Of a stretch of DNA of 22,787 nucleotides, positions 3,047 to 21,515 are shown piece after piece. How positions within the stretch are numbered: the stretch's first letter is position 1; the number at the start of each line of letters is the position of its first letter. Both the position numbers and the translations under genes were made by a program. The notes below the pieces were generated by a model. The model did no database searches and had not been told where the DNA came from. It was given only the letters and a program-made list of their open reading frames with translations. The DNA lies in contig JAHBMJ010004954.1 in NCBI GenBank assembly GCA_018398765.1, forward strand, positions 53,138 to 75,924, written 5' to 3'. This stretch comes from Chromera velia. Its lineage: Eukaryota > Sar > Chromeraceae.

Positions 3047-3679
3047 TCAACCCTTGCATGCCCAAACCCCCCCAAGCCTCTTGCCCCCGCCAGGAACAAG
3101 CTTCACTGCATGTCTTTTCTGGCACTCCTCCAGGAAAGTAGCCTCGTGGTTCTTCATCGTTTTCTGCGCCTCCTTCTGGGTCTGGGGGAAGTCAACGCCG
3201 GTCAGTTTGTAGTACCAGGGCGCGTCCGCAGGGTAGAGAAGATTCGGCCCTGCGCGTACGATACCAGCAGGAAACAACAAAAGTGGTATTTGGATCAATG
3301 AAAAAACATAGTTCCGTGTGCGCAACATGCAGGTCTGGATATGTGACAATTCTAGCAATGTGTGCAGAGATGGAGGCTCATCATCATGGAGCCAAGGTTT
3401 CAGCCGCAGAGATGGACAGGCCCACGATGGAGGAAGTGCAGTGAAGTGAGACAAAAAATGCCGAGAGTGAGAGACGGTGGAGACGGAAGAATGGTGATCC
3501 CATTAGGCAAAGCAAAAGAGAAACAAAAGATGCAGACAGATAGACTATGTGATTCTTTTTTTCCTTCAGACAGACAGACTATAGCGTCTTTTCTGTCCCT
3601 TTTTCTCTTTTTTCACCCTCTTCCGTTTGTTTCTTTCTTCTTTTGACAGACAGACTGTATGGTTTCTTTCCCTTTTGAC

Positions 3680-3711
<32 letters not shown>

Positions 3712-5505
3712 TGACAGACAGACGGATGCACAAACAGACGGACATGCAGACCGACAGCCACTCAAACATTCACTCACGAGCAGCAAGGGCCTTAAACGCC
3801 TCCGATCCGTTCTCCACGCGTGCATACTCCATCTTGGGGTACACATGCCACACTGCAGGACAGAATTAAGTCAAAGAAGCGAATTAGTCGTCAAGTGGGA
3901 GGGATCAAAATGGTCGATTAGAATGATCATATCGATCTGCAGTCACGTGCTCGAAAGCACAAAGCAGAAAAGTACAGAAAAAGCAGAGGCTTCACTTGGT
4001 ATCGCAAAAAGGCCTCTCGCAAAACATGTCGCTATCACACAATGACATTTGATCCAGCAGCAACTCATGAAACTTTCCACCCTTTTGATCTAGCTTTTGA
4101 TTCCCCCCCCCCCACCTCCGACCAAGATTCTTGGTGGCAACTGACAGTGTCTCTCATTTGGATCATGCGTGAAATACACAGCGCAGCAGCCCGCAGTCTT
4201 CGCGAAAGAGTCAACCTCTGCCATGAGCCTGCATGCGCTTATGAATGTCGTGGCTCCCCTGAGAGACAAATATCAGTTCTCCAAGTTAGAGAATAGCAGG
4301 CCACACACCCATACATGCACTCCCCGGGCCGAAACTAAAAGAAGATGGACGATCAAAATTCATACAGAGAAAACAAGGCAGTTCAGAAAGAAGCACCTAG
4401 CAATACGTATATCGAAGTGTTTTTACTTTCCGAAGGCGTCATGCCACGCTGTGTCCTTTGGTCTATTTCAGTGTCCCTTTTGCATCTTCACGATACTTTT
4501 TGATTCTACCTGCTCAATCACTTCTCTGGCCAGCGAATAAAAAACAGAATTAGTCGAGAAGAACAGAGAGGAGAAGCAAAGAAAAAGATGCGCAGAGCCA
4601 AATTGAATGACGAAGAGAGAGAGAGCGAAAAAGGCAGGGAGGAAAACAGTGAAGAAACAGAATTGAAAAAAATGGGCGGGAGGGAGCTTCACAGACTCCG
4701 AGAACTCCGAGTCGGGTGGAAGAGACAGAAAAGAAATGCATGCATGCTCGCCTACCCTAATGCCGGCCACTCCTAGCGGCCATCCACTCACTGACTGACT
4801 TTTTTGATAGTCCTCTCTGCTGGTAGTCAATATTCGTGCCTTGAAACTCGACGTACAAGTCTGAGCTCTCTGAGTCCGTGCCGATCAAGCCAGCACACAG
4901 TACCTCCTCGGGCTGACTGCAACAGGCAAACTCAATGCACGCACAAAAGCCAGAGACCCCTTGTCCGTTTCACAAGTCACTGAGCCGTGGAGGCCTCGAT
5001 GTCAGCTGCTCTGCACTTCTTGTAGCGAACGAGAAAGTCGGGCAGTTCACACAAAGCAAAGGGCTGAGCCTCGAGAAGGGGGAAAGAGCCGGCCATACGG
5101 GTAGCAACTAGCAACGGACTTTGCTTACTGATGCAAATTCTAAACCGTACATACACCTCACAAACTCCAAACCGCCCATGCTCCTCCTCACTCGTCAAGC
5201 TACCTCTCACGTACCTCTCTTTCCTCACACCGGCGATCAGAGTAGAGGCCGTGACAGACTCCCACATGGGTCCCTCTGTTTGCTTCTCGGTTCCCTCATC
5301 CTTCTTCTTCCTGAAAGCCTCCCGCAAAACCCTGCAGCAAAAGAATTAAACAATTGTCAAATTAACTCTGTGTAAAATGCTTTCCGCACAGGTTGAAAGG
5401 AAAGTTGAGATTGACGTACTTTGCAGATTCCAGGTAACGCGTCTTTTCCCTCTGTCCGAGATCCCCTGTCTCTGCAGCCTCGAGGTTGATGTGAACGAAG
5501 TACAC
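3047..5505 (-). other. Best-supported 3' coding block of the minus-strand gene
   Basis: Seven consecutive exons contribute 257 codons including the stop, each junction restoring a codon: AA+G, AG+T, CA+T, TT+G, T+TG and C+GG. The block contains charged helical sequence (REKTRYLESAKVLREAFRKK), then LEAQPFALCELPDFLVRYKK, then VYFTHDPNERHLWHVYPKME, and ends in a basic, glycine-containing tail (KLVPGGGKRLGG). Intron sizes here are about 87-630 bp. Six independent phase matches make chance unlikely. The fold is not identifiable by eye. Confidence 0.72.
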
Positions 5506-5604: not shown

Positions 5605-7199
5605 AGAGAGAGAAGCATAGAAGCACACATGCACACTGAGAGGCTCGCACACGCACTCAGTCTTACAGTCGATGATCTGATTTATACGCTTTCCCAGGCC
5701 CTCCCTCCCTCCCTCCNNNNNNNNNNNNNNNNNNNNNNNNNNNNNNNNNNNNNNNNNNNNNNNNNNNNNNNNNNNNNNNNNNNNNNNNNNNNNNNNNNNN
5801 NNNNNNNNNNNNNNNNNNNNNNNNNNNNNNNNNNNNNNNNNNNNNNNNNNNNNNNNNNNNNNNNNNNNNNNNNNNNNNTCTCTCTCTCCATCTCTATCTC
5901 TCTTTCTGTCTGTCTCCCCGCCCCTTCCACCCCTCGCAACCCCCTCCACACACACAGACACACACGAGAGGGAGAGAGAGAGAGAGAGAGAGAAAGAGAG
6001 GTTGAAAAAGGGAGACAACGATCGAAAAGGAACTCATAATACAAGCAAATGTCAACCTCACAACCCCACTGTGCTGCGCACATAACGGTCTGATGAAGCA
6101 TTCGTACGAATCCATTCACTTGTACAAATGAACCAACACCCTTTCTCTTTTTGCAAACTTAACCATACGTACTGTGGCACGACCTGTCTATCAGACAGCA
6201 GCTTCTTTTTTGTCAATCTTGTGGATGCGAAAAATGGGGCAAAAGAAGCGACTGTATGCAGGTGGATGGCGGGCAGATTTCATTTATTTCCAGGAAACGT
6301 ACGTGAATTTCGTCCTTCGACCCTGTCTTCACCTGGCTCTCTGTCGTTGCCAACACGGTCGTGGCTGCAGAAGCACTCGTATCAACAAAGCAGAGAAAAT
6401 CAGAGAAAAAAATGGTAGCTATAGAGGACAGTTTCAACCTTTCAGAAAGGACACCGCACGCAAACCCATGAAAGTTTGATGGCAGACTCCAGGTAAAATG
6501 ACTCCTGCGCTTCGTGTTTCACAAGAATGGGACCAATGCTGAATCGTCAAATGCTGCTGAGACGTTTTGGAATTAAGCAGCAAATTGAGACAGAGGCAGC
6601 AGAACGCAGGGTTGACAGAGGTAGCTCTCGAGAAAAGGAGTCAGGGCCAGTGGTCGAGGGGAAGACAGAATGGGCGGTCAAGACTCTGTCAGAGCTAGAG
6701 AGACTTCAGAGAAGAAGACGGAAACGGGGTGACAGGTTCCGAATCGATGAGCAGCAAAAGATGGAGACAGACGCCACCCATTCTTTTTTCTCTTGCTGAT
6801 CACCTCTGTTTGCGCAGATGGTCACTTACCTGTCACACTTGATGAAGAGGCTGCCTCATCTCCAAGCTGCATATTTAGATTCAGCGATTCTGATTGAAAA
6901 AGACAGCGTGGAGGGAAAGCAGACGTCACGGGCGGCGCATCAATGAACTGAAGCAGAAAGAGGATCGGTTAGCTGTGTAGAAAAATGAAGAAGGTCAGGA
7001 CATCCATTGACACATTTTGTATGCACGCACGATCACGCACATCCAAGCGTACGGGCAGGAAAGGGCAGGGAATTCAACAAGAGACGTCCCTCAAACTTCA
7101 ACAAGAGACGAATTCAACAAGAGACACAGGCAGACACAGACAGATAGACAGACTGCAGACACACAGACACACACAGACGCACAGACACAGACACACACA

Positions 7200-7247
<48 letters not shown>

Positions 7248-10200
7248 CAGACAAACACACATGCAAACGAGACGGGAAATCCAACCGCAACTACTTTTTT
7301 TGAACTCATTAACAGAACAAGACTCTCAACCGCCCACAGCCTACCAAAGCCAACAGCATGGCAGAATCCGACTTCAGCTTTCAAACCATTCACTCTTCTG
7401 TTCTGGCTTTGTTCCCTCTGGTTGCATCTTTCATCTGGTCTTTTCTTTGAGGAGCTTCCATGCGGGCTACAAGTTCCAGCGAAAGAGATGATTCTGCGCT
7501 TCAGGTCATCCGTGTCAGACTGCTTCGGCGTGAGAGGCAGATTGAGGCAGAAAGCAGATGACCCTGGTTTTTTGTTTCAGTGAAATGTAAAGGAGCATGG
7601 ACCACCCGTGGACTTAGTCTAGAATGTTGCACTATGCTGCAGGGAGGCCTGAAATGAGCTGACCTTCGGACTCCCTGCGGCGAGTCCTGCAGTTTTCTTT
7701 TTCTTAGAGGGGGTAGACGATCCTGGGAGGGGGCTCAGGGAACTTGGCTCTCTCGGCCTTCGTGAAGGCGAAAGCTGATCTGCAGGGATCGATTGTGAGG
7801 AAGTGAATTAACACGCAGTCCGGGGCTCATCATGGCCCAATCGCAATAACGAAAACGCACACAGCTCTAGATTAACAGAGGAGCAAAAGAGTGACAGAGG
7901 AGCAAACAAGGAAAGAAAAGAGCCGGGAAAAAGGCAGTCGACCAGAAAAATCAACAGAGACTTATTCGCACAACAGTATGCGGCCAGGGATATCCGATTG
8001 GTCTCACGTGAGGTGGTGCAGATATGGATGAAACGAGCTTGAAGCGATTTAGAGGCTGAACCTTCTCAAGAGGCACAGACGGACGTGTAGACAGGGGCAA
8101 AAGCGGATAGAAAGATAGAAACGAAAACCAGAAAAAGAATGGACTGACCTTTCAAACCTGACTGGAGTGCTGCCCCGGTGACCTTCGGTTGTGCTCTATC
8201 CTGAAAGAGGCAAGGTAGGAAGAAGGGGCAATAATTACACCTAGAATCAGACGGTCTCCGTGGGCTGCAGGGAGATGTCCATTCTCTACCTCATTCTTTC
8301 TCTGAGGCTCACAAACGCGCGTACGTGGAGGTCCCATCTTCGGCTACTCGCCAGACTGTACACGCGCGGTCGGAAAGGAAGCTTCAAGGACGACAGCATA
8401 GGCAGAAGCAATGACGCTCAGACAGATTGTCAAGCTTACAGCGTGCCACTGACTGCGGTTGACCAAAAGCGCTTGGAAATGTCAAAAGGGAAAAGTTTAC
8501 GAAAGTTCGTCAATCAACATGAGGAGAAAGAAGAGAAACTAAAAGACTCTGAGATCACGAAATTTCTAGACATCCAAGGCGGCACTGCACTTTCCCAATG
8601 CATCATCGATAATACAATGACGGCCTCGAGTGCAGGCGCAGGCACAGACGAAGGTTGTCCCCCATCCTCGCTGCCGTGTTTCAGAAGCGAGAGACCTGCC
8701 GAAGAACCTGTGCCCCCAATGAAACCCCCTTCCCTTTCCCTTTCCCCTTCTCCCCAACCTACCTCCTTCTCTTTCTCTTCCATCCCCGCGGTCGCAGAGG
8801 ATGAAGACGAGGCCCCCTCCCCTGCCCGCTTGGCCTCTTTCGGCCTCGAACCACCAGGCGCAGGAGGAACGGCTGCCCCCTGCCGAGAACGATCAACGCT
8901 GGCATTGGAGATGGTTCCCGTCAAACTCCCCAACTCGCCTACCTCCGTCTTCTGCAGTTTGAACGACACACTCCCAACGTTCCCTTGTCTCGCGATAAAA
9001 AGCGGACACAAAACAAGTCCCTCCCCCAACGCCCCCCATCCCCCTTCCTGTTCGGTCGGCTTGTACACGGTCCCCTCACCTAGTACTACTCCCTTGTCTG
9101 TGCCTCTTTCGCACCTTCCAGTCACCGGAGGCGTCTGACTCATACCAAAGAGACAGAACTTGATCCCGCCCGTCTCTTGCCCCATGTGCTGAACAGATGC
9201 ATCGAACGTGACTGTCACAGTATTGAAAGAACCTCCAAACTCTTGTCTGGTCTTCGCCCCTTGCTTCGCCTCCTCCTTCTGCCCCTCATGCTGACTGTGA
9301 GCTGCCTCGAGTGCCATTGCTTCTGGTGAATCAGATTTCGAAACGATAGTACACATGTCCAACTGGTATCTGCATATCATTCGATACGTGAAACTTGTAT
9401 TTTCAGTTTGCCCGCGCTTAGTACTCTACTATTACTCTACTCCACTGAATCTAAGCAATGAGCGGAATATAGTGCAATCGATCATCATCTTCATGATACC
9501 TTTGCTACAGAAGGAAGAGGGAAAACGTATTTCAGCACGAAAGCCGACTGGGACTAATTACCATCACTCTTGACCTTTGTGCAAAAGCGCGATGAAAGAG
9601 ACGAAACAGGCTGCTTGACTCAAAACCACGACACTCTGTCCAGTCTCTGGCAACCTCCTTTGATGCATGCAGGCTTGCTTGCAGGCGTCGAGAGAGAGCC
9701 GAAAATGATTTCTGAGGGACGAGACGACTTTCAATTCTCACGCACAGGTTTGCCTATCGAATCCAAGGAATAGACACATTGACACGTACTCACTGCCCTG
9801 CGCATACCCAGCGGTTCTCGGAAAGATGCATGGAAAGAGGCTTACAATGCAAGCAAACGATGAAGTCTGACGTACCGTTCGACTCCAGGTTTGGTCTTGA
9901 GAAGGACTCTCTGAACATCGACACAAACACCAGAAATAGGTGCACCTTTGGTTGCATTCTGCAGAGAAAAATCAGGGAGACTAGGGGAAACAGGAGCATA
10001 CCAACCCTGAGCAAATGTCTGGATGTTCGCGCTGATATCGACACCCAGAATCTTTCGGGGTCTGAATTTGACTTTGAAACCGGAGCCTGTTCTGGAACAA
10101 AAGAGAATCGAACAATTAAGAAGACACGAGAAGAAAAACAGAAGCTGATCTCAAGCGACACTTTTGTGGATCTATATATAATTCTCAGTCTCTATGTTGC

Positions 10201-11040: not shown

Positions 11041-11113
11041 CTGCGGCCGCCCCGGCCGCCGCGCGGCGGTCCGATGCATGCGTGCATGCGAGAGTGGGCG
11101 CGCGCTGCGCGCC
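11041..11113. repeat. Cluster of GC palindromes
   Basis: Contains a perfect 14-bp palindrome CCGCCGCGCGGCGG (11056-11069), two GCATGC boxes around 11076-11089, and GGCGCGC / GCGCGCC arms around a GCT centre (11097-11113). It sits in otherwise moderate-GC or AT-rich DNA. Confidence 0.8.
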
Positions 11114-11793
11114 GACGTTGTTGTGGTGGGTCGATAAAAGAGGGACACATACAAAAGTTCTTCTCTTTCGAGGCGTCGTGAGCGGCGCATGTCGGGATGC
11201 CTTTTTATGCACGCTCCTCTTTTGCAACACTATATACGACATTATTACTCAGAGAGACGGGGAACCCGCCAACCATTCATTCAACAATTGCCATGCAGTG
11301 TGCAGATTGAGTTGTACAACTCAAGTGAAGTAAAGTGAACTTGAGTTTCGAAGGAAAATGATGTTCAAAAGGCTTCAGAGTAATTGCGGGGGCCGGCTTA
11401 TATAGAGAGAAATTTTTATGTGTCCCTTCCAGTTGGGCCCGAATGGCAACTATGTGCGCACAAATCACTACTTGGTTATAAGCTAGCTATAGTAAGATTT
11501 GGACATGATTTGGTCCCAAAATGCAAATTTCTGCACAGGTGGTGCCCACGCAGTCATCTCAGACGCGAGTATAGTATAGTAAGATGCCGCGGCGCCGGCC
11601 GCCCGCGGCGCGGATGGCGCGCTCCAGAACGATCGATGATTCCGGTGAGTCAGTGAATGCCAGTACGTGATTGCTCCGTGACGTCGATCCTTTCCTCCAT
11701 TTTCCTCGGTCAGTCCTGCTGATATCATCAGTCCACCTCAGAACGTGTGTGATCCCTGATTGTCTTTTCTTTGACAGTCCGTAAGCAACGAAA

Positions 11794-11964: not shown

Positions 11965-14900
11965 ATGCCACCCATAGGTCAGTTTCCGTGGCCCTCGGTG
12001 TGCTGTAGAAACGATGCCTTCACTGGAGACAAATTCAATTGATGCCCTGAAACTGTGTTGTTTGCAGAAATTCCACCCGTTCTGACGGGAAACCTTGAAC
12101 AGTACCGTCTTGTGAGTGAAATTCAGGTGAGGACTCAGGGGGGTGCACGACTCTCCGCGTTCAGGCCGTTGCCGCATGACGACTTCGTCTCGCTTTCCTG
12201 CTGTGCATGTCCTGCGGTGATGGTAATTTTTTTTCTCTCTTTCCCTCTCCTTTTTCTGCAGCAATGCCTTTACGGTTGCGTCTTCAAAGGCGTTGCCCTC
12301 ACCACAGGTGCTGTCGTGGCGATCAAAATATTCTCAAAGGTCGGACTGTCTTTTTCGTCCCATCGCTCCGATGCGTCCCTCTGCAGGGTCAGATGGAGGA
12401 CTCCACGCGTGTATTGATAGAGAGACGGCTTCAATAGTCCAACAGCCTGACGCGTCTCAGTCTGTGTTTCGTCAATCACTTCTGTGCCCTGCAAAGACCT
12501 CACACCTCTATTCTGCTCGGCCCCTTGTTCCTTCCTTCCTTGCAGTGTGAAATCGCAAAGAAGGAGAGCGAGACGGGTCAGTTGCAGAAGTTGTAGGGAA
12601 ACGACCACTGTTGATGTGTCTTCCCTCCCTTCCCTTCCTCGCAATCAGCCGCTCTCTCTGCATATCTCCAGGGACACGACGGACCTCCCCCTTGATTGTT
12701 TTTCAACGTGCTGTCTTCCCGTACCAGCTTTTCTCTTTCCTTTTGTTTGCCCTGACTGAGTAACTGTCTAACTAGTGTGTGGACGCGCCTCCCTGCAGAT
12801 TTACCAGAGACCCCCTTGGCCGAAGTATTCTTTGCGACTCTGACGGCCTCTGCCTCTGAGTACCTGACCACTCCGCGGGAGGTTTTTCACGATGAAAACT
12901 TTCATTTTGTTGTTTCCGATTTTGCAAGGGGAGAGGACCTTCTGGAACTGGTCAGTCAGTCAGTCCTCCGTCTCCCTTGTACAAACTTTCACGTGCCCCC
13001 CCGCTCTCTCTCTACCTGTCCGCCCGCTTCATGAAAAAGAGGCTGTCAGGCACTCCCCTCTCCCCTTCCTTTTTCTCAGTGCGTCTCTTCTTACATGAAT
13101 GTCAAACAGATTTACTGCAGTTGTCGAAAACCAGTGATGGGCAAAGCGGCTTCCTTCTGTTCATTTTCTCCACACCAAAAAACCTTCATTTCCTTCTATT
13201 TTCACCATCATTTGACGAGCCTCCCAAGTTTTGACACCCTCGTTTGGCCGGAGTCCCTTTGGCTTCTCTTCTCTTCTCGTCTGTCACAGTGTGGCATCAT
13301 CTGTCATGCAGCTGAAGCTCTTCCCACAGGGCATGCCGGAGCCCCAGGCGAAGTTCTACATCCGGCAAGCGACAGAGGCCCTCATGGAGTGCCACCGTCG
13401 AGGTCAGCACTTGGAAGGAAGGAAGGTAGAGGGATGAAAAAAAAAATATGGCCTCATTCGACAGCCTCACTCGCATAAGAGTTCGCGCTTGGAAGGAAAC
13501 TCAACATCCTGCCCCCCTTCCATCCCTGTCTTTTCTTGCTTCTCTGACGCTCACCCTCTCATTCAAAAGACGTCCTGTGTATATTGTTGCCGTCTTGCGT
13601 TTTCTTCCTCATTCCGACCGCGGCCTTTTCGTGTACGTGCTCCGGTTCCCTGTCTGCTCTCTTGAGTTCTCACGACGGAGGCTCCCTCCTTTCCTTTTTG
13701 AACAAACAACCGATTCCTCCTTCTCTCATATCCTTCCACACGTACACTCACTCACTCACACGATCACTCACTCGATCGTCAGGTGACCGACCCTTCGTTT
13801 CCCTTCCCTTTCCTTCCTTTCCTTTTCCCTTGTTGCATGATGCAGACTTTGCCATGCAGGACTTCTCCCTTGAGAACTGTCTCCTCTTCAAGAAAGGGGA
13901 GAGGGGGGGGCCCTTCTACTTCTCTGTGAGAGTCTGCGACCCTGGACAGGTACGTCTGTTCCTCCCTCCCTCCCTTTCTCTCTGCTCTCGCGCAGTGCCT
14001 CTCGCTCCGGTTCCATTCTCTTTTTCCTCCTCGTCTGCATTTTATTGCAGCATGTGTTTGAGAGAGAAGTGCATTCCATGCAAAACGCTGGAGTTGCATG
14101 GCTGGGGTGAGGACACCAATTTTTCTTCCTCACTCAAGCTTTATCGGATTCTCACAGAGCAAGTGTTTTCCCTCTCAACTGACTGCCACTCACTCCTTCC
14201 TGAATCCCTTCACCCTCAATTCCTCTTTTCTGCAGGCAATTCTGTTCCGACGGCACCCCTCAGGACGAGAGCTGCGGGTGCCCTACAGAGGGTGCGTCGG
14301 GAAGAAGTTCAGACCCCCCGAGGTGTTCGAGAGGAAGCCGTACCTGGCGACCAAAATCGACTCATGGGACCTCGGGTGGGCATGCTACTACTTGCTCTTC
14401 GCTCGGCAGATAGTGGGGGTGAGTCCGTTGTTGGATGTCCGCATTTTGTGCCCGATAGATGTGTGGCTTCCCCCGTCCTTTCTGTCTGCTGCGTTGGGGT
14501 GTCTTCTCTGTTGCAGAACGGTCCTTTTCTGATCGCGAGTGTGAATAGAATAATTCTTTCCGTCCGTGCAGTCGTGTGACGAGAGGGACGAGGACTGGAG
14601 GTTCGAGTTGTTCAGAAAGGGGCGGATTGCAGAGCTGATGGACAGAAATGAAATCTCCAAACCTTGGACAAATGAGGCACTCGACTTCATCCTCAAACTG
14701 ATGAGGCTTGACCCTTGCGAGAGAATGTGGGTGGGTTGTATGAAGGGAGGGCCGCTCTTTCGCGTTCTCTCTCGATCGGTGCGGTTTTCTTCACTTGTCC
14801 GTGAAACCTTTTTCTCTCTTTGGTCTTCTTGTTAGCTCGCTCTCTGTTCTCCATTTGAATGCAGAGAAAGTCAATCACACTACTCCTTCCCTTCTTTTAT

Positions 14901-17900
14901 TTCCTCCTTTCCTTCTTCTTTCCTGCTCTCCTCTCTTCCCGGAATCATGTCCTTCCATGCAGGGACATTGCCGACGCCCTCCAGCACCCCTGGCTGGATC
15001 CCAACCACGCCATTCCCATCGCGTTCTTCGACTTGAGGCCGAAGTGTTCGATAGAGCACGACCTCATCCTCCAAGCGCACCTGCGGAACGTGGACGACAA
15101 GTGAGTGAGTGAGTGCATGAGTGCGGGTGTGTAAGGAGGGAAGGAAGTCTTTGGGGGAAAAGGGCATGCTGGATGGATGGAATCTGGTTGAAGAAGAATG
15201 GAAAAAACAAGAGAGAGGTGCGTGTGGCACAGCGTCTGCAGCAGGATTTCAGTGAGTGAGTATGTCAATATGGGTGAATGCGTGTTGAATGGTGGCCTTT
15301 TTTTGTGTTGTTTCGGCCTGCCTGCAGGGCATGCAGTGAGAAGGTGAAGAGCATCCAAGAGAGAATCAAGGTGAGTGCGGAGGGTGGGGGTCCACCTCCC
15401 TGGTGTTTCTTTACTTTTGTATGTGTCGGCAGATACTCTCTCTCTCTCTCTCATTGTTTCTGTATTGGCCTGTTTTCGTCTTTCTCAGACACTGATATTT
15501 CATTTTCTCCTGCCCGACTGACCTTCTCTTGACGTTTTTTTCCTCTACCCATCTCCCTGCATATGCAATGCGTTAGACTTCACAATTCAATCTAAATTCG
15601 TTGAGTTAAAAATCGCCTCTTGTCACCCCTGCAGCAAGGTCCCGCCATTCCAGAGGCGTACAGGAAACAGTTCATGAAGCAGCTCTGTCTGTACTACAAA
15701 CCCTCAGGACACACGCTGGGACAGCTGGAGGGTCTCAGGGATTCCATCGCCCTTCCCGACAAACGCACCGCAGCTGCGGAGCCCTTGCTGTCCCTCTCCA
15801 CGATTCCCAAGGAGGAGTGGACGAAAACTTTCAACCCCACCCCGATGATCCATTCCTACAACGGGGCTGTGCTCACATTCCCGAAGACGCCTCTTCCCGT
15901 CGACCCCCCCCCCCTCTTCCCTGACCAGCCCCAGTCACAGAGCCCTCCCCTCACCCACGTACCTGGTGTCCCCACCTCCTCCTCTCCCCAATGCCATCCT
16001 GCCATTCCCTCACACCCTGGACAGCCCCTTGCAGGTGCTGCAGCACATGCACGTGGATCGAGGGCCCACTTACCGAGGTCCCCTCAGCGACCCGAAGCCG
16101 TGCCTGACAGCGCCATGACGTCACAGGCACAAGAAGCAAAGGCAAGTCCGACCACAGGGACCCGTCTGCCCCCGGGAGGTGGGGGGGCTTCTTCCTTTCG
16201 GCAAACTCCGCCTCCTCAGGTTAGCTTTCTGACTGCTGTGCTGGAAGTGAGTGAGCATCTGTTTCTCTTGGTCTCTCTGTGTGTCCGGACTTATCTCTCC
16301 CTTTTGCCCCTCGGTTTCCCTTCCGACAAGCCAATGCGTTGCATGACGGTATGCTGACCGACTCTTTTCTTCATATACACCCGCTGAACAAGTTCTTTGG
16401 AAGTCAATCAATCGCTTCTCTTGTGCAGGAACAGCAATCTGGTCGCACAAAGCCAGCGGTTGCCTCTCCTGTCGTGGAACGCCTCGAGAGAGTCCCTGGG
16501 GAGGGGCAGAGGGTGCATGTGCAGGTGCGGCTTCTGCCAGACGCTCCGCAGGCAGTGACTGTCGGGGGGCCTGGACGGGGCCGCCTGAGGGGAAGAGAGA
16601 TGGTGGGTCCAGTGGGAGGGCCCAGAAGGCATGCACAGACAGTGGAACCAGGACGGAGGGTCGGTAGAGGAGCGGTCACATTGGTGGGCCCCGGCATGCC
16701 CCTCCGAACGAGTGGGTCCCCGTCCCTGGGTCCTTGTCGGTCCCTCCTGGCAGGACCTGGAGAAGCAGGCCCAGGCCCGACGGGGTCTCTCCCGCTCCGA
16801 CCGCACCTTCCTGGTGGATATGAGAGTGTAGGTCTGTCCCTGAGTCCCTCGCAGAAGGACAGGATCAGGTCGGCAATGGAAGCTCAGATGGTGGCAGCAG
16901 GGCGGGGGCAGAGAGGAGGGGGGTCTGCTGATGAACCAGCAAGTTCTTCTGCGATCATTCAGCGGGTGCCTGTGGGAGTGGACTCTCTGCAGCTTCCTCC
17001 CTCCGGTCTGTGCGAGGACGGCTCTTCTCCCTCAAATGCTCCTCAGCAGCATGGAGCGCGACCTCTCCCTCTCCCCGGACACGCAGCAACCCTCCATTCC
17101 TGGGGAGGGGGGGGGAACGGGGCCGCTGGTACCTCCTCGGTGTTTCTTTGTATTCATCCACAGGTGTGTCTGTCGGTCTGTTCTTGCTTGCTTTTCTGCT
17201 TGCGCACGAGAATGAGAATGTACACCTTCGTCTTGTCTTGGGATTTGTGGTCATAAAGCACTGTTGTGATTGCCTTCTGTTTGATCCCTTTCTCTCAGGA
17301 AGTCTTCTTTATTCTCTGTGCAGCAAACGGAATATGGAGCCCGGCCTGGACCTCAAGCTGCGCATCCACACCTTGCTGCTTCTTCGCACCCCTTGCCGCT
17401 GATTCCCTCGGATACCGTCTCCACGTTCACGGCTGTCCGTCCAGAGACGCAAGTGGGGACGGCTGGGAGTTCGGTTCGCATGATAGACAGGGCGCGGTCG
17501 AAGGGTGAGAAGGAGAACGAAAGAGGAAGAGCCCTCGTGGGCCTCAAAAGAGGACGAGCAGCCCCACAGGGACATAGAGAGAAGCAACCGAAACCATTCA
17601 ACCCTCCAGGCAGCCACGCTGTCGAGGAGATGGCCGCTTCCTCGTCGGCACAGCCTCCAGTGGCCGCCCGGTCTCGAGACCGTCTCTATGGGGGTGGGGG
17701 GAGAATGCCTGCCCCCCTCACCCCGAATCCGTTTGCCCCAGAAGGCCGGAGGCGTGCTTCGTCTGTCCACCCTCCCGGCTTTTCCACCGTGCCCCCTCAG
17801 CCTCCCGCGTCTTCTGTCCTCATTCGGAAGTTGAGGGCCCAGCGACGTGGGGCAGAGGGGGCGCGGGGTGTCTCTCCATCCAGACGTGCCAAGTCTCCCC

Positions 17901-20714
17901 TTCGAGTGGGGGGAGAGGAACAGGGGGGAGAGGGGGGGGGGTGGAAGCAAGGGAATGAGGGGCGTCGGCGGGCGCTTGAGATGATAGCGGAGGCAGATGA
18001 GAAGGAGAAGGGGGAACGGAAAGTTTGTTCTCCCACTGCTGCATCCTTGCCCCTCCCATTTGCATTTGCAGATGCGCCCTCAGAAGCGACACGCAAAGGG
18101 GCAGAGAGACGATTCCGTCGTCTTATTCCAGGCGCCTCGGCCACAGTGCATGTACATGGAGGCCCTGGAAAGGCCCCGGAAAACGGGGGGGCACGCGTTG
18201 GAGCGTTTCTCCGAGAGTCCCATGCCGTTCCTTCGGCATCAGCGTCGGGAGCACCCAGACGGTCTGCGTCTCCTTCTCCCTCCCCAGCCCCCGCTGCAAG
18301 GCCTAAAGAGACGAAACCCAATCTGCCAGGTGCACTTCCTCGTGGGAAGGGACGGGGAACAGTTTCGGCTGCTGCCAAGAAAGCAGCAGCAGAAGCTGCG
18401 GACCGCAGAAAAAACAATCCCCCGCGTGCCCCCCCTCCGACAAGAGGGCGGACCAAACAATCGGTCGCGTCACGTGGGGCTGCGGCAGGAAGCAAAGGGG
18501 CGAGCTCAGCAGCAGCATCGTCCGCAGCATCTGGGCGTGGCGTGCTCTTGAAAGAGAAAGAGAAGGCGAAAGGGCTTACTGGCGTGGTTCCTCGGAAGGA
18601 CACGATTGCGGGTGCGGTTCTTCGGGCTGTCCGCGGAGAGGGGGGGATGGACAGGGGCCGTTCCCATCACCTCACTCGGGGGTCCTCAAACGGGCAGTCC
18701 GTCTCGGCGGCCTCGCGATCATCAAGGGCCCCCTCCGCCTCGGGTCCACGGTCGCGTGCCGGGGCCCAAGCGAAGAAGCCGCGCTCTCCTGGCGCCCCCG
18801 TTCCCTCTTCAGGAGGCCTCCGAAGGGGTGGCAGGGGACGGGGACGTGGCGTTGATCGTTCTCGGCAGGCAGCCGTTCCTCCTGTGCCTGGTGCGTCGAG
18901 GCCGAAAGAGGCCAAGGGGGCAGGGGAGGGGGCCTCGTCTTCATCCTCTGCGACCGCAGGGATGGAAGAGAAAGAGAAGGAGGTAGGTTGGGAAGAAGGG
19001 GAAAGGGAAAGGGAGAGGGGTTCCATAGGGGGCACAGGTTCTTCGGCAGGTCTCTCGCTTCTGAAACACGGCAGCGAGGATGGGGGACAACCTTCGTCTG
19101 TGCCTGCGCCTGCACCCGAGGCGGTCTCTTTTGAGGGACAGGCACCAGGTGCAGAGGTCGAGAGAGGGGGGGTCATGGGCGGGGATGGTGTGGTTGAGGA
19201 GGGCATGGGGAAAGACGAAAGTGTTTTGTTGTCTCGCGTAGATGCGCCCAGAGAGGAAAAGGAAAAGGAGGCGCAAGATGAGATGTACAAGGTTGAAGAG
19301 AGGCTAGTAGACGATTCAGTCGATGGAGAGGGTCATCAGGCAGACAGCCACGGTCGGAACAAGGAAGAGAGAAGGATACAGGAGGCTTCCCAGAACGACA
19401 CGTCTATCCTCCCAGTAGAAGCAGGAGTGCAAGTCAGCCGTGTTGCTACCCCCCCCGCCCTAGTCATTCCCCTCCAAGCGCTGCAGCAACGCTTTGGTCA
19501 GCAGCTCTGCTCCTCTTTCCACCTCCACCAACCAAATCTCAGCGGTCGCACTGACACAAGGCTACCCGCTCGCAGCACACACAACCCAGACGGCCGCCCG
19601 TCTCCCCTTCCGTCTCCCGCGCAGTCTCCGGGATCCTCTCTTCCTCTTCCGCCTGCTGGCGGGATTCCTCCTCTTAGCCTCACCGCTGTCCCCCTCTCTT
19701 CCTCTACCGCCAATATCACAGCAGCAGCAGCACCTCAAGGAAGGGCCGTCTCGGTTTTCCCTCACTACGACACGGCATCGAAGAGGATGTTGGCTGCGTC
19801 TCAGGATGCCGCTTCGCTCTCTTCTCGTGTCCCTGCCGACTCTGCACCCTCAGCGGCTTCCCACGCACACACAGTCTCACGCCATCACGTTCTCCACGCC
19901 CCTCCCGGACATTCCACGGGAAACACACCGATCCCTTTTCCCAACCCCCTAACTCAGCAGCAGCAGCCTCTTCAATCAGGGCCACTGAGCGGTTCCACTG
20001 CCGCTCTTTCCACCGCGGCGCTTCACAGCATGGCGGTACCCCAGCAACCCCCCCCACAGGGTACAGGGGCTTCTGGGCGCAGTGTCAGTGCGGCCTTCGG
20101 GGGCCCATACCGCATTCCCCTGGTGTCACAAATTCACCAGCACGCCCACTTCCTGCATCAGGGACCGCCGGTAACGCACAGAGACCGCCCTCTTGCAGAT
20201 GCGTCCCCCCGAGAAGACGAGCGAGAGAGAGCGGCAGGCAGGGGCAGGGGGGTGCTGTTTGCAGCGTTGCAACTAGCAAGCCCTCGTCGGCCTGCGGGAT
20301 CGGCCAGGCGGACAGACGCGATCCCCCCGAGGCCCGTGCCTCCAGAGCGTCCTCCTCGCGCTGTCGGTTCTGCCGGGGTCGTCCCTGCAGCTCCCGGCGT
20401 GGGCATGCCCGCAGGAGATGTCGCCTTTCTTCGCAGCCAGGGAGGCGGGGAGAAAATGCCGGGGGGCGAGCGCTCTGGCGTTCTGACTGCGAGAGCGTCT
20501 CGGTCCGATTGGTCGAAGGGGGAAGAGGGGGTCTGGTTTTCCTCCTACGCTCCTGATGGTCTGAGGGCATCCGCCTCGAGTACCCTGCAGCGACAGGCAC
20601 AGACAGGGGGGGCCCTCCCGAATCCGTCTCCATCTCTACTGACGGAAGGCCGAGCGAGTTCTCACATTTTCTCGAATTGTTTGGCAAACGGTCAGTTTGT
20701 GTGTGTGTGTGTGT

Positions 20715-20751
<37 letters not shown>

Positions 20752-21515
20752 GGAGGGAGGGAGGGAGGGAGAGAGAAAGAGAGGTGGGTTTCGTGACGAT
20801 TGGGCAGGGAGCGTGCATGCGATTCTCTTCGAGAAGGAAGTCAAGCAGCTTCATTGAAGGCAATCAAGCTGTGGACGGATTTGCATGGAGAAAGTGATCC
20901 ATCTGACCTGTCACTGCCTTTCTCCGCACTGCGTCCGTCTTTTGATATTCGTGCATTCATCACCCTTAATTTGTGTTTGGCTCAGTGTCACGAATGAATA
21001 TCCTGTCGGCTATGTATCTTATTTCCCTTTGTACCGTGCGCGTTCATGCACGCACGCATGCAGGATTCATGGGAGAAGCACGTGGAGAATCTGTCGGCCT
21101 GACAGCGTCGTCAAGCACGCTTCCCCAGACTGCTTCTGCTGGGCCAAATTTCCCCTTGAGGCACCAACAGGAGAACAGTGGGGGCATCCCCCCCCTCTCA
21201 AGGACCCCATTCGTGCCTCTGGTCCCTCACTGGCAGAACCCACACCACTACCCTCAGCAGCAGCAGCAGCAACAAGCAATGATGTACGGAGGGAAGGGGG
21301 CGGCACCCGGCGGGCAGTGGCAACAACCTGTGACAGGAGTCCCGGTGGTTGTCGGTCGCTTCTCAACACCAGAAGGGAGAGGGAGAGCAGGGGCTGCCCA
21401 TCCGGCAGGTCTCCCATTGCCTACTGTGCCAGGCCCAGCGCGGGGAGGTGCCCCCGTTGCGTTCGCAGTGCCCATGCCCGGGGGGGTGCCTTCCGGACTT
21501 CCTCGGGGGCCCTGA
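11965..21515 (+). CDS. Atypical protein kinase (kinase-like) with very long low-complexity tail, ~2061 aa
   Basis: Fifteen exons thread in phase: 11965-11977, 12068-12126, 12262-12339, 12546-12576, 12799-12950, 13312-13402, 13846-13949, 14236-14418, 14572-14726, 14963-15100, 15328-15370, 15635-16219, 16429-17163, 17324-20690 and 21064-21515, totalling 6186 nt with a TGA stop. Donors are mainly GTCAGT, GTGAGT or GTACGT; acceptors are TGCAG. Residues ~17-300 are a protein-kinase fold, ending in the usual LxHPWL-like helix (DIADALQHPWL). Residues ~301-445 look partly structured (YRKQFMKQLCLYYKPSGHTL). The remainder is Pro/Ser/Ala/Gly/Arg-rich. The start is the first in-frame ATG after an in-frame TAA at 11935. 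No signal peptide is seen, so a cytosolic or nuclear location is an inference. The kinase exons are secure; the exon 13 to 14 junction is less so, with a GTACCT site near 17130 as an alternative donor. Confidence 0.82.
13739..13779. repeat. CACT-rich microsatellite
   Basis: Degenerate CACT tract near the 3' part of the intron before exon 13846-13949. Pyrimidine-rich TTCCC repeats follow up to the acceptor. Confidence 0.7.
14051..14106 (+). other. Candidate 56-nt alternative (frame-breaking) exon
   Basis: Within the intron between kinase exons 13846-13949 and 14236-14418, this block has a TTATTGCAG acceptor and a GGGGTGAGG donor and reads HVFEREVHSMQNAGVAWL. Its length is not a multiple of three, so including it shifts exon 14236-14418 into a frame that reaches TAG near 14412. 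I left it out of the main model because the frame without it gives clear kinase sequence (GKKFRPPEVF). Confidence 0.35.
15438..15452. repeat. (TC)n tract
   Basis: Short CT dinucleotide run in the intron before exon 15635-16219. Confidence 0.75.
17324..20690 (+). other. Giant 3.4-kb tail exon, low-complexity coding
   Basis: A single frame is open for over 1,100 codons, far beyond chance even in GC-rich DNA, and it joins in phase on both sides. The peptide is dominated by Ala, Ser, Pro, Gly and Arg, with basic patches (GLRRGGRGRGRG), acidic-basic stretches (MEEKEKEVGWEEGERERERG) and alanine runs. It is probably disordered and rich in possible phosphorylation sites. Other frames show shorter open stretches with high third-position GC (18070-18551 and 18606-18986), which I attribute to the Ala/Gly/Pro/Arg-biased codons of the main frame. 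Confidence 0.75.
18849..19126 (+). repeat. Kinase-tail segment duplicated at 8619-8899
   Basis: This 278-bp coding segment of the tail (from GVDRSRQAAVPPVPG to APAPEAV) is the partner of the copy in the minus-strand gene. The two copies are in inverted orientation about 10 kb apart. Here the segment lies inside the long open frame and its ends have no visible target-site duplication or terminal repeat. Confidence 0.93.
20697..20783. repeat. (GT)n(GC)n(GA)n(GGGA)n compound microsatellite
   Basis: Alternating purine-pyrimidine GT and GC runs followed by GA and GGGA runs. It starts six bases downstream of the proposed GTCAGT donor of the giant exon, so it is intronic in the model, although the open frame runs on through it to 20857. 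Confidence 0.9.
21064..21515 (+). other. Terminal exon of the kinase gene
   Basis: The exon begins after CATGCAG, joins the previous exon in phase (G+GA), and ends in TGA at 21513-21515. It encodes about 150 residues rich in Gly, Pro, Gln and Ala, including a polyglutamine run (YPQQQQQQQAMM) from a CAG/CAA repeat at about 21258-21281. Confidence 0.72.

Follow-up and report, generated by a model that had tools for sequence, protein, structure and literature searches.

A kinase exon fragment copied in inverted orientation, most likely into an older intron of the neighbouring gene, in Chromera velia

Introners occur in many copies and generate new introns. Short duplications of another kind have been surveyed in Drosophila, where 83.4% of polymorphic duplications are given as shorter than 500 bp and such events as frequent (PMC6380325). 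Insertions templated by MMBIR are described as inverted with respect to a template located on their own chromosome, with microhomology of a few base pairs at the junctions (PMC8421209). The published assembly of Chromera velia amounts to 193.66 Mb, is divided into 5953 scaffolds and includes about 30 Mb of transposable elements (PMC4501334). Here we analyze a stretch of 22,787 nucleotides of this alga (the window), located at the end of a contig (C3647) in an assembly of 177.8 Mb and 4040 contigs that was searched as its own genome. Matches to chlorophyll-binding proteins number 58 in this genome and those to alveolin-like IMCp domains 11, one bacterial control having given a signal as well in either search. 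The window contains a kinase gene (gene A) and a divergently transcribed neighbour (gene B). Each has a paralog elsewhere, namely, A2, which is collinear with gene A and lies on contig C797, and B2, which is diverged from gene B and lies on contig C3599. The two sequences at issue are as follows.

8619..8899, minus strand: copy B, the derived copy of a kinase-tail segment, most likely within intron 1 of gene B (BLASTN, 266/281)
18849..19126, plus strand: copy A, the source, within the long tail open reading frame of the kinase gene; A2 has the segment at the same place

An earlier note on this DNA, made from the sequence alone, had reported an inverted match of about 280 bp between these two places, and BLASTN returned the same, sharp ends (minus 8899-8619 and plus 18849-19126), with 12 mismatches, a single 3-nt gap and an E value of 8e-127. 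Similarity ceases at both ends in the flanks compared for the two copies (700 and 650 nt in all). The ungapped core of the match measures 259 nt, and this pair is the sole long one not made of simple repeats among the 20 inverted-repeat pairs listed for the window. The match is not due to chance. Both copies begin at an equal codon offset of their open frames, so that the frame is kept between them, as had been noted. Read in the kinase-tail frame, 8 of the 12 substitutions, located in 7 codons, replace a residue and the other 4 are silent, a result that agrees with the "about 8 of 12" counted previously by hand.

The earlier note had left it to a genome search to distinguish a dispersed family from a two-copy event. 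At the DNA level the segment matched the genome at two places, each of them inside the window (2 of 2 candidates scored; repeat counts from this search are lower bounds, very common words being skipped). A dispersed repeat is not supported by this result, which bears out the earlier description of a segmental copy, here between two divergent genes. A protein search with the open frame of gene B retrieved 7 places at E values up to 1 (19 of 19 candidates scored), and the segment was clearly present at three of them, namely, gene B itself, gene A (E 5e-40) and A2 (E 6e-12, 59% identity). The others were the relative of exon 1 on C3599 (E 0.0026) and weak matches with E values of 0.08, 0.56 and 0.90, the last two of which lie on other contigs and overlap the segment's part of the query. 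A search with the whole kinase tail reached at least 32 places (best 39 of 2936 candidates scored): A, A2, copy B and 29 others, none of which extends outside residues 1063-1183 at the C-terminal end of the frame.

Other duplicates were sought in two ways. (i) With 20,000 of the 22,787 window bases as the query, at least 57 rows were obtained (best 39 of 1953 candidates scored); among those listed, 44 belong to one repeat family at 11083-11587 and 13 lie on C797, 11 of them in exons of A2 and 2 in simple repeats. The A/B pair itself is absent from this list, which thus tells nothing on other rare duplicates. (ii) A background sample for local duplicates comprised 102,384 bases from six contigs, including 5,219 N, and at 0.06% of the genome yields no rate. 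An all-against-all BLAST of this sample listed 10 same-contig pairs, the A/B pair included. Three of the nine others were compared with the genome, one of them by 120 of its 178 nt, and all three proved to be dispersed families with at least 46, at least 41 and 42 rows (40 of 67, 40 of 810 and 34 of 34 candidates scored, respectively). Of the remaining six pairs, four touch a TCTG-rich stretch of C797 and two are short (46 and 63 nt) and lie on C3647.

These comparisons also brought to light several repeats that may be recorded for themselves. A dispersed repeat of about 500 bp occupies window positions 11083-11587, in the interval that separates the 5' end of gene B from that of gene A, with its at least 44 rows spread over 37 contigs at 74 to 98% identity (best 39 of 1953 candidates scored); in a quick look at its outer 110 nt, terminal inverted repeats of at least 9 nt were not seen. 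A 276-bp dispersed family has two copies 1.4 kb apart at locus L013 (5423-5698 and 4008-4271), with at least 46 rows in the genome (40 of 67 candidates scored). The 120 nt at 1481-1600 of the same locus recur at 98 to 99% identity in at least 39 further places and, partially, in one at 95% (40 of 810 candidates scored), and apparently represent a young repeat family. An 83-nt dispersed element with 42 rows is present at locus L016 (1875-1957 and 2939-3015) and forms a close inverted pair in several contigs, such as C3753, C3786 and C885.

The direction of copying was derived from gene A and its paralog, for which the following features are relevant.

11965..15100, plus strand: exons encoding the kinase domain of gene A, put together by hand from 10 exon strings; Pfam PF00069 with E 1.8e-29 and exon-wise matches to A2
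17285..20854, plus strand: kinase-tail open frame, the source of the segment, 1190 amino acids from stop to stop; in the alignment with A2, 617 of 1007 residues are identical

The kinase domain of gene A looks atypical: the VAIK lysine is present, but MQDF and CDPG stand in place of the usual HRD and DFG motifs. A2 is collinear with gene A over the kinase exons and the long tail exon, and the segment is embedded in it at the same place, with a protein identity between A and A2 of about 60% over the segment. Since A2 carries the segment in place, gene A has it by descent and gene B is the recipient, and sequence comparison thus establishes that copying went from A to B. No relative of gene B was recognised beside A2 in C797:40001-80000.

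With A2 as the outgroup, substitutions were polarised by hand from the codon table, on an alignment that is gapped in a charged stretch. Seven of the 12 could be assigned, 6 to copy B and 1 to copy A, and 5 are ambiguous; the difference is not significant. The changes on B comprise 4 replacements and 2 silent ones (each taken singly), and A carries one silent change. One of the ambiguous codons reads Arg in both B and A2 and Gly in A, a hint that A underwent a replacement there. Assignment by hand likewise placed the 3-nt insertion on B. Fisher's test, computed on a first tally of 5:1 versus 0:2, gave a p of 0.11 on these small counts. Signs of the relaxed constraint on one copy that had been suggested earlier are therefore seen, with 6 of 7 polarisable substitutions on B, at a level short of significance. 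Gene conversion between the copies is not suggested by the longest unchanged stretch of 88 nt, which looked unremarkable by hand arithmetic.

The structure of gene B, read from the sequence and from its comparison with B2 (locus L010, C3599:1-10000, minus 5316-720), is presumed to be as follows.

8943..9380, minus strand: first exon of gene B, with 146 codons, starting MICRYQL and ending KTE; B2 starts MGCRYQL and ends ETQ at the matching donor
8937..8945, minus strand: presumed exon-1 donor GAG/GTAGGC, cut after GAG, 7.2 bits; aligned with CAG/GTAGGT of B2, 10.3 bits
8201..8942, minus strand: intron 1 of gene B, 742 nt; donor inferred from B and B2, acceptor ctttcag ending at 8201 a candidate
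3149..5336, minus strand: later exons of gene B, at about 5336-5229, 4921-4793, 4245-4168 and 3226-3149

Three of the later exons match B2 on C3599 in the same order (E 1.5e-10, 1.0e-10 and 4e-4). For the exon at 4245-4168 a match to B2 appeared in one comparison only, in which E values apply jointly to a chain containing matches in simple repeats. Conservation of exon 1 is weak, with 27% identity and an E value of 0.0026, and the reverse search gave 0.18. The exon-1 donors of B and B2 both follow a complete codon, and two lesser donor-like sites lie within 9 nt of the B2 donor (7.5 and 7.0 bits). Homology between B and B2 extends a few codons beyond the donor because GTAGGC and GTAGGT also read Val-Gly; the open frame then runs into a stop in both genes before any further homology, so that a splice is needed. 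A Pfam search at E values up to 0.1 gave no family for exon 1, the open frame or the last-exon frame of gene B. Gene B further contains a run of 162 N at window positions 5717-5878, beside simple repeats. A weak match to residues 81-132 of the gene B frame at locus L007 (C257:27017-27175; 35% identity, E 0.08, one stop) may represent a distant third relative of exon 1.

The match of the gene B frame to B2 spans exon 1 only, the segment not being included. Behind the B2 donor no credible trace of the segment was found, the one candidate being a stretch of 25% identity in the presumed intron (E 0.17). With filters off, weak matches to the segment occur elsewhere on C3599, with E values down to 2e-4, apparently in purine-rich sequence. 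B2 is too diverged from B to supply the sequence of the empty site. Since a donor is present at the equivalent position of B2, with no credible trace of the segment behind it, the copy would have entered an older intron and not have created a new one. This speaks against the "new intron segment" that the earlier note had put forward, if a new intron is meant by it, to the extent that the weak homology of exon 1 allows. Copy B thus most likely lies 43 nt inside a pre-existing intron 1 of gene B, a placement that is well supported, not proven, and it is probably not an exon.

The earlier note had also called the kept frame and the sense-to-sense placement notable. Both are real, and their weight is small: a frame match has a chance of 1 in 3, frame and sense orientation together one of one in six by simple arithmetic, and the frame of copy B is open mainly because its source was an exon. 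Of random single changes in the segment, 3.6% create a stop and 74% alter the residue; the probability that 12 random changes create no stop is about 0.64, and the 8 of 12 residue-changing substitutions observed compare with the 74% expected at random. The kept frame and the proportion of replacements would thus fit unconstrained drift, and selection on the copy is not demanded by them. An exonised module, the other possibility named in the earlier note, would be neither shown nor needed by the frame match.

The reading that we regard as probable is a one-off inverted copy of a kinase exon fragment into an older intron of gene B, where it drifts, is spliced out and is functionless. A 278-nt piece of the kinase tail exon would have been copied once, inverted, across about 10 kb, and would have landed in the pre-existing first intron of the divergent neighbour, 43 nt behind the donor. 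Most likely it would have been template-copied DNA patched in during the repair of a break or stalled fork, the presumed route being template switching, MMBIR-like, or synthesis-dependent repair. The presence of only two copies, in inverted orientation and about 10 kb apart, with a source confined to one exon and with clean ends, fits DNA-templated break filling or a template switch. No target-site duplication or poly-A was seen by eye in the 40-nt flanks of the copies, and by the same inspection the copy has no repeat-element ends. The origin is likely a one-off templated insertion or small interspersed duplication. The copy would since have changed without coding constraint and would be removed with the intron, presumably serving no function of its own. 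Certain points count against intronic drift, namely, the weak homology of exon 1, the kept frame and 3-nt indel, which are also expected of a coding copy, and the presence in the copy of a donor-like site that outscores the presumed donor (9.0 versus 7.2 bits). This site occurs in both copies.

8757..8765, minus strand: donor-like site GAG/GTAGGT in copy B, cut at 8763, 9.0 bits
18980..18988, plus strand: the same donor-like site in the kinase tail exon, copy A (source copy)

If splicing occurred at 8763, the copy would provide a new 5' splice site, in phase, that lengthens exon 1 of gene B by 180 nt, and a minor or major isoform would gain 60 residues, 14 from codons of the old intron and 46 from codons of the kinase tail. 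Scored with a donor matrix of 18 sites (10 of gene A and 8 of 10 A2 candidates, the A exon end at 14726 being omitted), the site ranks best of the 56 GT sites between 9385 and 8514, with the presumed real donor at 8943 second; it lies 180 nt downstream of that donor in the same phase with no stop between them, and the sole indel of the copy is 3 nt long, all of which would favour its use. Against this, 12 minus-strand sites in the window, that at 8763 included, score 9.0 or more, an in-phase site within 281 nt is about a 1-in-20 coincidence (by hand arithmetic and judged after the fact), the same site sits in the exon of gene A, where the frame collinear with A2 runs through it, and the changes on B look unconstrained. 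We therefore consider such exonisation unlikely, and would give a slightly smaller chance to the specific proposal that a chance intronic landing supplied the in-phase 5' site and that gene B makes a chimeric isoform with 46 kinase-tail codons. A literature search on exonised gene fragments returned no matching paper.

Three further explanations concern the origin or reality of the copy. Because the segment lies within one exon, spliced RNA could have served as the template, a piece of kinase RNA being reverse-transcribed into a break in gene B; the source spans no intron, so that no intron loss diagnostic of RNA is possible, poly-A and target-site duplication, as expected of a retrocopy, are absent at the ends by eye, and the position of source and target as neighbours 10 kb apart favours a DNA template, which makes this route quite improbable. 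It is very unlikely that the copy is an assembly artefact absent from the cell: the assembly is a draft with gaps and the N run at 5717-5878 lies in the same gene, but an artefact of this kind should yield two identical sequences, and here there are 12 scattered differences and an indel, different flanks and no N nearby. We give hardly any credence to an introner, or to another dispersed element able to form introns or to spread among genes; the sharp ends and the probable intronic position would suit it, but two copies were found instead of many with common ends, the segment originates in an exon, and the intron is apparently older than the copy, judged from the B2 donor without the segment and with the reservation of the weak exon-1 homology.

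Taken together, the duplication of this exon fragment is real, directional and represented by two copies; it most likely went into an intron and is ordinary in kind. It would be a further instance of part of a gene coming to lie in an intron, probably through copying linked to repair, in a chromerid alga, and it illustrates that an in-frame match between genes can mislead, the paralogs of both partners having given the direction of copying and the probable context. Were the site at 8763 used, the locus would represent exon shuffling between neighbours 10 kb apart at an early stage, caught in the first step.

Compared with known systems, the locus shares with introners a DNA segment in an intron and differs from them in that it is two-copy, derived from an exon and most likely placed in an older intron. 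It shows the low copy number, unrelated flanks and lack of repeat-element ends of interspersed duplications. The small segmental duplications of the Drosophila survey likewise measure a few hundred bp and are tandem or interspersed; that survey covers polymorphic duplications, and here we have one copy in one assembly (PMC6380325). The MMBIR-templated insertions are inverted with respect to a template located on their own chromosome, as is copy B, although the software described there seeks inverted copies within 100 bp of their template and the present copy of 281 bp lies about 10 kb from its own (PMC8421209).
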